Shown in pieces: positions 8,557 through 10,572 of a stretch of DNA of 24,629 bases. The translations under genes were made by a program, and so were the position numbers. Numbering within the stretch: the stretch's first letter is position 1; every line of letters begins with the position of its first letter. Below the pieces are notes generated by a model that was not told where the DNA came from, searched no databases, and worked only from the letters and a program-made list of their open reading frames with translations. Origin of the DNA: a virus; the IMG/VR virus record IMGVR_UViG_3300031673_000457, positions 1 to 24,629 of that record; one strand, written 5' to 3'.

Positions 8557-10572
8557 ATGTCCACCTCCCCGGAGCTCGAGCGATTCATCGAGGCGCGGCA
8601 AAGGCGCCTCGTTCGTTTATACCAGGACGCCTATGCCGAGTTGGTTTCCCGGCTAGCCCGGCAGAAGTTTTATGGCCTGTCAACGGAGTTCACCGGTAAT
8701 TTACTCCGCGATGTCGAGCGTACCCTGACCCGGTTGGACGGCGAGATGGTGACCTGGATCCAAGATACGTTCCCGGACGTCTATCGCGACAGCTCAGACC
8801 AAACCCTGGTCGACTTGAGCCGGCGATACCACATGGCGGGCCTCTCGGGCAGTTTCGCTCAAGTCCACCAAGACGCAGTACGGCGGCTGATGGCCGACAC
8901 ATTCCGCGACATCGCCGCCGCCACGCAGAACGTCAGGGCGGAGTTGAAGCGGGCCATCAGGGACGCCGCGAAAGGCATTTTCCGGCTGGGCGAGGTCACT
9001 GGCGAGACTCGGGTCCAGATGACCAAGCGGCTGGTCTCGAGGTTGGCGGCGCGCGGATTCACGGCCGAGTATGACGCGAAAGGGAAGTACATCAGGCTGG
9101 CTGAGTATTCGGATAGGCTGAGTTATGAACGCTACGCCGAACTCATGATGGAGAATCATTGGGTGGGGTTTGTTGACGCTGCTGGCCGGCGGTGGGACTT
9201 GTTGAACTACTCGGAGATGCTCACCAGGACGAAGATCCGGGAGGCCGTGTCCAGGGGCACCGAGGATAGGCTGCGCGCGAACGGCCTCGACTTGGTCCAG
9301 ATCGTGGGGCCCACTATCGTCGTCGATTGGTGCGGGGAGTACCGCGGCAAGGTGTTCAGTATTAATGGGAACAGCACTGAGTTCCCGCCGCTGGCATCCA
9401 TCCCTAACGGCGGGTGTCCAATGCATCCTCGGTGCGTGCTAGGCGGAACGTTTGTCACGGGACCGCGCCCAGTCATGTCGTTCAGCCGATGGCACGAGGG
9501 AGAGATCGTCGTCATCCGTACTGCCAGCGGAAATGAATTGTCCGTCACCCCAAATCACCCTGTATTGACGCCGGAAGGCTGGGTCGCCTCGGGATTGCTG
9601 AATGAACGCGATCAAGTCATCCGTTACCTGGGGCAGCAAGGGATGGTGGATGCCGCTGACCCAGATTATGTAGACATTCCAACCCGCATCGAAGAAATAA
9701 CGTGTTCTCTTGGGCATTCGGGCAGCGTGTTTGCCCGTAGCGTGCCAGTGGCCGCCGAAGACTTCCACGGCGACGGGGTGGGTTCCAATGTCTGTATTGT
9801 ACGGGCCGACGGCCTGTTGGGAAATGATCGTGATTCCACGATCAGCAAGCCATCCGGCCAAGATTCTTTCTGCCTTGCTGGTGTTGCTACCAGCACGCTG
9901 CACGCCGAGGGCGCGGCGCGAAAGCTGTTCAACAGAGTGCTTCTTGCCGCGGACCGCATCATGAGCGGCGGCAGTCAGAGCCAATCGTCCTTCAGGCGAA
10001 AGGCGTGCCAGTCGGAGCCGGGTCGCTTCGGACATGTTGGCGGCCTTCTGAACGCCGAATTCGGTCAGGCGCCGTTGAATGGTGGCGTTATGGACACCAA
10101 GAGAACGGGCGATGTCGCTCTTGGTTTCCCCGGCCTGGTAGCGGTCAAAGATCTCTTGGCTATTAAGGGGCAGCGTTTCGTAGGCATGCGCCGCCTTGGG
10201 TCCGCGCAAGGGGATACCCAGCTTGACAAATCGTCGCTGGAGGGTGGCGGCACCGATACCCACACTCTTAGCCAGGGGCTTCAACCCTTCGCCGGCCAGA
10301 TAGCGTTTGACACAATCATCCAGGTCGAACGGCGGGCATTTTCTGGACATGTTTACAACCTCCAAACAAAGTATAGTTGGTATGCTTGCAATTCAATTAT
10401 AACACATAACTGCAAGGATGTCGAGGCCCCATTCGTGGCAAAGTTCCACGAGGTCGAGGAATTGACCGCAGCCCAGATGCCCGCCGACTCGCGCTGGCTG
10501 GGGAAGAACAAGGCGAATGGTCACGCGGACCAATCCGTGCTGAACAAGATGTATCGAGCAGTCAAGACCTAG
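8557..10572 (+). CDS. minor head protein (SPP1 gp7/Mu F-like) precursor containing an intein, 671 aa
   Basis: The host protein is a minor capsid/head morphogenesis protein encoded directly after the portal. Residues 1-292 are the N-extein: helical N-terminus and the gp7/Mu F-like domain (YSEMLTRTKIREAVSRGTE, VVDWCGEYRGKVFSI) ending in IPNGGCPMHPR. Residues 293-618 are the intein. Residues 619-671 are the C-extein starting CKDVEAPF. Splicing would restore ...HPR-CKDV..., matching the conserved HP-x-C signature at the end of this domain in phages, and give a mature protein of about 345 aa, a usual size. The frame is open throughout, so the insert must be removed by protein splicing rather than RNA splicing. 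The start is ATG 8557, three bases after the portal stop, with a weak GGCGGTG. The opposite strand of the intein encodes a nuclease. Confidence 0.9.
   Translation: MSTSPELERFIEARQRRLVRLYQDAYAELVSRLARQKFYGLSTEFTGNLLRDVERTLTRLDGEMVTWIQDTFPDVYRDSSDQTLVDLSRRYHMAGLSGSFAQVHQDAVRRLMADTFRDIAAATQNVRAELKRAIRDAAKGIFRLGEVTGETRVQMTKRLVSRLAARGFTAEYDAKGKYIRLAEYSDRLSYERYAELMMENHWVGFVDAAGRRWDLLNYSEMLTRTKIREAVSRGTEDRLRANGLDLVQIVGPTIVVDWCGEYRGKVFSINGNSTEFPPLASIPNGGCPMHPRCVLGGTFVTGPRPVMSFSRWHEGEIVVIRTASGNELSVTPNHPVLTPEGWVASGLLNERDQVIRYLGQQGMVDAADPDYVDIPTRIEEITCSLGHSGSVFARSVPVAAEDFHGDGVGSNVCIVRADGLLGNDRDSTISKPSGQDSFCLAGVATSTLHAEGAARKLFNRVLLAADRIMSGGSQSQSSFRRKACQSEPGRFGHVGGLLNAEFGQAPLNGGVMDTKRTGDVALGFPGLVAVKDLLAIKGQRFVGMRRLGSAQGDTQLDKSSLEGGGTDTHTLSQGLQPFAGQIAFDTIIQVERRAFSGHVYNLQTKYSWYACNSIITHNCKDVEAPFVAKFHEVEELTAAQMPADSRWLGKNKANGHADQSVLNKMYRAVKT
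9439..10350 (-). CDS. antisense Vsr-like (EDxHD-type) homing endonuclease nested in the intein, 303 aa
   Basis: This complete gene is on the strand opposite the intein. Start ATG (complement of 10348-10350) lies eight bases after GGAGG (complement of 10359-10363); an upstream in-frame ATG at 10365 precedes the Shine-Dalgarno sequence and is rejected. Two homologous helix-turn-helix repeats occupy residues about 9-48 and 63-101 (LAKSVGIGAATLQRRFVKLG; IARSLGVHNATIQRRLTEFG), fitting DNA recognition. A linker at 118-150 resembles nuclease-associated modular DNA-binding segments. The catalytic domain spans about 157-232: SKAERIL (Glu161), YNTDI (Asp187), VAVEVFGGHWH (Glu196, His201, His203), then RTRYFFDAGWNVYIIWV. 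This is the pattern of the very-short-patch-repair fold used by EDxHD homing nucleases such as I-Bth0305I. It presumably cuts intein-less minor head genes at the HPR|C site. The stop TAG (9439-9441) lies six bases inside the intein. Confidence 0.88.
   Translation of the reverse strand: MSRKCPPFDLDDCVKRYLAGEGLKPLAKSVGIGAATLQRRFVKLGIPLRGPKAAHAYETLPLNSQEIFDRYQAGETKSDIARSLGVHNATIQRRLTEFGVQKAANMSEATRLRLARLSPEGRLALTAAAHDAVRGKKHSVEQLSRRALGVQRAGSNTSKAERILAGWLADRGITIISQQAVGPYNTDIGTHPVAVEVFGGHWHATGKHAARMPKRTRYFFDAGWNVYIIWVSGIHHPLLPQVTDDLIAFIQQSRGDPAFRRQYRVIWGDGQFISAGSTDDDDLSLVPSAERHDWARSRDKRSA
10359..10363 (-). promoter_or_regulatory. Shine-Dalgarno of the antisense endonuclease
   Basis: GGAGG on the minus strand, eight bases before the ATG at 10350. 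The same bases encode Asn-Leu-Gln of intein block F on the plus strand. It decides the start of the nuclease at 10350 rather than 10365. Confidence 0.75.
10396..10424 (-). promoter_or_regulatory. sigma70-like promoter for the antisense endonuclease
   Basis: On the minus strand, -35 TCGACA (complement of 10419-10424, five of six to consensus) is separated by exactly 17 bases from a perfect TATAAT (complement of 10396-10401), preceded by TG at the extended -10 position. Transcription would start near 10389, about 40 bases before the nuclease start codon. The -10 box and spacer lie over the intein's C-terminal catalytic codons (Ile-Ile-Thr-His-Asn), while the -35 lies in the C-extein, so the full promoter exists only after insertion. 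Confidence 0.7.

Follow-up and report, generated by a model that had tools for sequence, protein, structure and literature searches.

An intein in this window, a phage contig of 24,629 nt from a virus collection with an overall GC content of 56.3%, is very probably a mobile element that encodes a homing endonuclease antisense to its own splicing domain and carries the expression signals of that nuclease within the intein. Read in one direction, the insert would be a HINT splicing domain without an endonuclease. Read in the other direction, in the same codon register, it is predicted to encode helix-turn-helix (HTH) repeats and a catalytic domain of the Vsr/I-Bth0305I type. The putative signals for this second gene would be spelled by the splicing motifs themselves, with an extended -10 element in the Ile-Ile-Thr codons of block G and a stop codon in block A. 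Block F would supply both the Shine-Dalgarno (SD) sequence, in its Asn-Leu-Gln codons, and the start codon, opposite its histidine. The features of the window are as follows.

8557..10572, plus strand: phage minor head (MuF-like) protein gene, the intein host; 671 aa; PHROG 4611 minor head, 6.6e-34; Pfam Phage_min_cap2
9433..10410, plus strand: intein, Cys293-Asn618, with HINT blocks A, B, F and G
10350-9439, minus strand: predicted antisense nuclease gene, 303 aa; ATG at 10350, TAG at 9441-9439
9586..9885, minus strand: Vsr/I-Bth0305I-like catalytic domain in the predicted structure, nuclease residues about 156-255
10057..10323, minus strand: two predicted HTH repeats, residues about 10-98, from HTH Pfam matches and model helices
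10348..10350, minus strand: start codon, complement of His598 CAT; CAT at 85 of 103 histidines in the family, 32 expected
10359..10363, minus strand: Shine-Dalgarno GGAGG; Leu CTC at 88 of 116 in the family, 32 expected
10396..10401, minus strand: -10 box TATAAT; exact in 35 of 120 loci, 2.4 expected
10402..10404, minus strand: TGn extended -10 element, complement of Thr ACA; NCA codon at 41 of 76, 10.2 expected
10419..10424, minus strand: -35-like TCGACA in the C-extein; specific to the window, with no -35 enrichment in 60 loci

The sense strand encodes an intein without an endonuclease domain

The insert is an intein by its splicing blocks, and splicing of the head protein is predicted. Block A begins with Cys1 (C293), block B contains TPNH (the TxxH motif), block F reads GHVYNLQT, and block G reads ITHN followed by Cys+1; the His-Asn pair is present and the host protein is interrupted. 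The last asparagine of the intein is residue 618 (10408-10410), which corrects the original prediction. Profile matches agree to different degrees, with TIGR01445 above its cut-off at 24.8 bits, Pfam Intein_splicing at 2.1e-7 and 31.3 bits (under the cut-off of 35.8) and TIGR01443 reaching merely an E value of 0.36. The sense frame of the intein matched no endonuclease family in the Pfam and PHROG profile search, and it is not an endonuclease-bearing intein of the canonical kind. A search of the phages and viral contigs with the joined extein yielded no allele of this head gene that lacks the intein; the phages gave only head proteins of about 24-28% identity and the viral contigs gave none.

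The antisense strand encodes a predicted Vsr-type nuclease

The antisense gene lies inside the intein in the same codon register as the sense frame. Its stop codon (TAG, 9439-9441) is the complement of the Leu295 CTA codon in block A, just past Cys1; across the family the nuclease stop directly adjoins the Cys1 codon in 39 of 100 loci. Profile searches with the antisense protein returned HTH domains, a weak match to the MTES_1575 restriction nucleases and a weak match to a PHROG endonuclease family, and a single-sequence search of the PDB with the catalytic domain gave nothing useful. We modelled the protein with AlphaFold using 15 sequences, obtaining a mean pLDDT of 80.5. In a Foldseek search of the PDB this model had a single significant target, the catalytic domain of I-Bth0305I (3r3p, E 5.7e-4). 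VIA-align placed Vsr highest (1cw0, Z 11.3, 111 residues, 2.4 Å), followed by I-Bth0305I (3r3p, Z 10.1, 92 residues, 2.3 Å) and 3hrl (Z 9.4, 88 residues, 2.0 Å), scores that barely stand out above the rows below them, at Z 8.9 and less. Because of this small separation, our assignment of the fold rests on the Foldseek match together with the agreement among the top four structures. As modelled, the C-terminal domain of the antisense protein matches Vsr and the homing endonuclease I-Bth0305I, and DNA-binding modules are predicted beside the Vsr-like catalytic domain, as in enzymes of the I-Bth0305I (EDxHD) type. Glu161, Asp187, Glu196, His203 and Arg215 are conserved in the nuclease and are candidate catalytic residues by fold and conservation only.

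Homologous loci occur in diverse phages

Using tblastn, we found matches to the antisense protein in 129 of 50,697 phage records and to the sense intein in 125. The antisense match was often the stronger of the two, for example 144 bits against 86 bits for the sense strand in Gordonia phage Vivi2. Viral and genome contigs were also searched, which gave at least 550 confirmed viral matches, and from the phage records and both sets of contigs we assembled a family of 125 distinct homologous loci. Phages of Salmonella, Escherichia, Gordonia, Vibrio, Klebsiella and Pseudomonas, among others, carry the antisense homologues in their inteins. Across the whole of the nuclease homology the sense frame was open in 124 of the 125 loci, AT-rich phages included, where extein codon usage would place 3.9 sense stops in the average locus and up to 19 in AT-rich ones.

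The sole exception is Acinetobacter phage BUCT629 (L038), in which the nuclease is a free-standing, annotated gene (L038:1869-2804, plus strand) that is convergent with an intein-free minor head gene, overlaps its last bases and has 12 stops in the opposing frame. This arrangement is perhaps ancestral and perhaps derived. In the annotated records that we examined, the nuclease was annotated solely in this free-standing copy. Phage annotation thus misses antisense nucleases, and six-frame checks of inteins would be worthwhile.

We also scanned ten diverse sense ORFs against PHROG and all matched head-protein families, some of them fused to a portal, with the matches of L061 and L080 resting solely on PHROG 15127, which itself spans the intein. 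In the virus Rctr197k the element lies in a dCMP deaminase gene (PF00383, L223:1165-2517) and has kept the SD sequence and a GTG start; the start signals therefore move together with the element. At another locus the precursor (L058:1795-4566, minus strand) also matches Pretoxin-HINT (PF07591, E 1.3e-13) upstream of the intein, giving a head-related protein with two HINT-type domains. The start histidine has been lost in L063, where the nuclease is truncated, and in Rhodococcus phage REQ3 (L039), where it is shortened; both are cases of start-signal decay in nature.

Substitutions follow the antisense reading frame

In the shared register the third base of a sense codon is the first base of a nuclease codon, and sense position 1 is the wobble base of the nuclease. 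We compared substitutions at the two positions (pos1/pos3) in close pairs of loci from the Guernseyvirinae and Gordonia, distant pairs being saturated and uninformative. In the exteins substitutions fell at sense position 3 (pos1/pos3 0.10-0.62), whereas in the nuclease stretch they fell at sense position 1 (1.26-2.71). When seven pairs were pooled, the exteins gave a ratio of 0.41. Within the intein it was 0.86 over the initial 70 codons, 2.11 in the central part and 1.23 over the 40 codons preceding the nuclease start, and it was 0.13 just outside the antisense gene. Since the changes in close pairs collect at the wobble base of the nuclease, the predicted antisense protein is under purifying selection. 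By this measure the nuclease is the main force shaping the middle of the intein, and both proteins shape its splicing ends.

Start signals are written into the splicing codons

In the window the putative start signals were where the original prediction had placed them, to the base. The nuclease ATG is the complement of the block F His598 codon CAT at 10348-10350, GGAGG (10363-10359) is the complement of the Asn-Leu-Gln codons AAC CTC CAA and lies 8 nt from the ATG, and TATAAT (10401-10396) is the complement of the block G Ile-Ile codons ATT ATA. TCGACA (10424-10419) lies in the C-extein with a 17 nt spacer to TATAAT. The predicted AT-richness was also found. The GC content over 10350-10412 is 31.7%, and just 0.05% of 63-nt windows fall below this value; the window as a whole has 56.3%. 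The SD sequence of the window taken alone is mildly unusual, being equalled by 13% of synonymous recodings. Directly preceding TATAAT is TGT, from the Thr ACA codon, which gives an extended -10. The signals observed at the window are base-correct and, judged across the family, very far from a product of chance.

To place these signals in the family we counted them at the 120 loci with a recognisable block F-G, with expected values taken from extein codon usage. The residue opposite the start is histidine in 103 of the 120, encoded by CAT (an ATG start) in 85 and by CAC (GTG) in 18; where this histidine is absent, an ATG mostly follows a short way further in, at a distance of one to a few codons. 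The mean SD score is 4.03, compared to 2.28 for synonymous recodings, the highest recoding mean being 2.65. At the -10 place no simulation gave more than eight exact copies of TATAAT, against the 35 observed. Its two codons are biased individually, with ATA at 49 of 71 for the second isoleucine (8.9 expected) and ATT at 57 of 85 for the first (18.9 expected). Allowing small shifts, 60 of the 120 loci have a strong -10 (4.2 expected), 51 of them at the same position and 20 with TACAAT.

A scan of codon choice by column placed peaks at the signal codons: His CAT (z 11.3), Leu CTC (11.8), Ile ATT (10.3), Ile ATA (15.1) and Thr ACA (9.3). Neighbouring columns such as Tyr+2 (0.5), Ile+12 (1.2), Asn+20 (1.5) and Cys+21 (0.3) were near expectation, at 0.3-1.6 with Asn+3 included. 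Some other neighbours in block F-G reached z 3-7, a moderate general shift towards AT-rich codons. Part of the bias may therefore be compositional; the five peaks exceed the shift. In the family this shift (GTT, TCT, ACT, GCT) spans the whole antisense leader, corresponding to 10350-10412 of the window, and perhaps keeps the leader of the nuclease mRNA unstructured.

As shared ancestry could inflate such statistics, we repeated the analysis with 96, 50 and 22 representatives, the last below 38% identity, and all five peaks persisted. The original prediction would have failed had inteins without an antisense gene used the same codons, and they did not. Among control inteins that lack the nuclease, most of them members of other intein classes, none of 43 had the start-position histidine and 2 of 19 used CTC. 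A closer control, inteins at the same site in Gordonia phages without the Vsr-type nuclease, likewise had neither the start histidine nor the ATT-ATA pair. Judged from codon choice, the C-terminal splicing codons contain the predicted start codon, SD sequence and -10, and synonymous selection has kept these signals in place in many phages. The start signals of the nuclease determine which synonymous codons are used and even that the residue opposite the start is a histidine.

The selected element of the putative promoter is an extended -10

The original prediction went further, holding that the -35 belongs to the conserved target gene, so that landing of the intein beside it completes a -35/-10 pair and ties nuclease expression to correct insertion. 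The window itself invites this reading, as TCGACA-17-TATAAT is the best sigma-70 match (11/12) on both strands of the 24.6 kb. The family argues against it. At the 60 loci with a strong -10 there was no enrichment of a -35 at the right spacing over randomly chosen positions (mean rank 0.43, with 5% below 0.05) and no conserved TTGACA-like -35 was present 16-18 nt upstream; the TCGACA of the window was the only five-of-six match among them, about the number that chance predicts. The C-extein sequence differs between relatives, and the stretch around TCGACA (KDVE), taken to be part of the conserved target, is absent from them. Together with the element in the dCMP deaminase gene, this leaves the claim that insertion completes the promoter unsupported, and we consider it very improbable. 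The TGn element was selected instead. The window has TGT-TATAAT, a sigma-70 extended -10 (TGn-TATAAT), and both of its parts are selected in the family; in Snoke, a Kagunavirus that has the element, the sequence is TGC-TATAAT. The conserved part of the predicted promoter is this self-contained extended -10, which lies wholly inside the intein.

Another reading is that the antisense frame has no function and that start, SD and -10 arise from protein constraint and base composition. This register does often yield long spurious ORFs in GC-rich genes, and the general AT-ward shift of the block F-G codons would point the same way. It does not explain why the frame is also open in AT-rich phages, or why the synonymous codons of the signals are biased and their neighbours are not. 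We rejected this reading, which now has almost no credibility, on the fold of the antisense protein, its relatives, one of them free-standing, and the inverted substitution pattern that follows the antisense wobble base. A less easily dismissed view accepts the nuclease as real and translated and denies that the -10 is its main promoter: the gene would be expressed from a different antisense RNA, or the codon bias in block G would have another role, such as serving the DNA target of the nuclease or an autoregulatory site. The other half of the loci, many of them from GC-rich actinophages, have no strong -10 and must either rely on a different promoter or lack one, and the -10 adjoins the insertion point, a possible binding place for a homing enzyme with its HTH repeats. 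Yet what is selected in diverse hosts is precisely TGn-TATAAT or TACAAT, at a fixed distance from the start, and the bias is strong at the hexamer bases and weak at the His-Asn-Cys codons beside them. We regard this view as unlikely.

For the mobile intein with an antisense endonuclease, transcription of the nuclease by host RNA polymerase would start from the -10 without depending on the late head operon, and would probably fall early in infection. The nuclease would then cut intein-free alleles of the host gene, repair would copy the intein in, and protein splicing would restore the head protein.

Relation to known mobile elements

In the usual picture an intein spreads by means of an endonuclease that forms part of the host-protein precursor, and the EDxHD enzymes are known as intron-encoded proteins or as free-standing ones between the halves of split inteins. 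Canonical large inteins with an in-frame LAGLIDADG or HNH domain share with this element a HINT domain at a conserved site of an essential protein and an endonuclease of the homing type. In contrast to these, the predicted endonuclease here is encoded by the other strand. Its gene overlaps the very splicing blocks and comes with a start, SD and -10 of its own, and the enzyme would never be part of the spliced precursor. Unlike in the known EDxHD arrangements, the nuclease is antisense within an intact intein; its likeness to these enzymes is one of fold. According to PMC3943268 and PMC10448857, I-Bth0305I and the EDxHD enzymes have a Vsr-like catalytic domain with extra DNA-binding modules, occur in phages, as here, and are linked to introns or split inteins.

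The ShiLan domain of a phage methylase, an HNH endonuclease concealed out of frame (PMC11855218), is also a homing endonuclease in an alternative frame of an insertion that is open in the host frame. It is read from the methylase transcript in a different frame, lacks a HINT domain, is unspliced and has no detectable ribosome site, and the paper discusses no promoter (PMC11855218). The present element differs in its opposite strand, Vsr-type fold and HINT domain. The BUCT629 gene belongs to the same nuclease family and abuts the 3' end of a minor head gene, with neither an intein nor a sense overlap. Our literature search found no antisense endonuclease in an intein and no start signals in splicing codons. 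A preprint on actinobacteriophage inteins (10.1101/2025.01.02.630785), outside that search, is cited by PMC11855218 for overlapping reading frames, and going by that citation the antisense arrangement may partly be described there already.

Here the functions of splicing and nuclease are separated by strand, which means that the nuclease can be timed independently of the late structural gene. As the splicing-motif codons spell the putative start, ribosome site and -10, one and the same DNA is selected in both directions. The locus is densely dual-coded, with a protein motif, promoter, ribosome site and start codon predicted on the same bases, and more than 120 natural replicates make selection on each layer readable from codon choice.

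A second antisense nuclease occurs at the same site

We think it reasonably likely that these loci represent a widespread class of mobile inteins with an autonomous antisense endonuclease, whose promoter, SD, start and stop lie in the splicing blocks, whose early expression by the host polymerase could be uncoupled from the late head gene, and which dictates part of the splicing-domain sequence. Such a class would have arisen at least twice, with a Vsr-type and a LAGLIDADG-like nuclease at the same insertion site. In the Gordonia phages Lennon and Barsten the intein at this site of the head gene lacks the Vsr-type nuclease. An antisense ORF in the same register (register 0) is present instead (L225:1798-2505, minus strand, with an equivalent in L226), which gave no match in Pfam and matched PHROG 5046, an endonuclease family, at 3.6e-15 and the LAGLIDADG enzyme I-MsoI at 4e-4. 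With a different, LAGLIDADG-like antisense nuclease at this site, the antisense arrangement seems to have originated repeatedly. For this ORF pos1/pos3 was 4.1 in the middle of the intein compared to 0.14-0.20 in the exteins, pointing to purifying selection on the antisense strand here as well, and relatives annotated as free-standing genes are present in Caulobacter phages and cyanophage PP.
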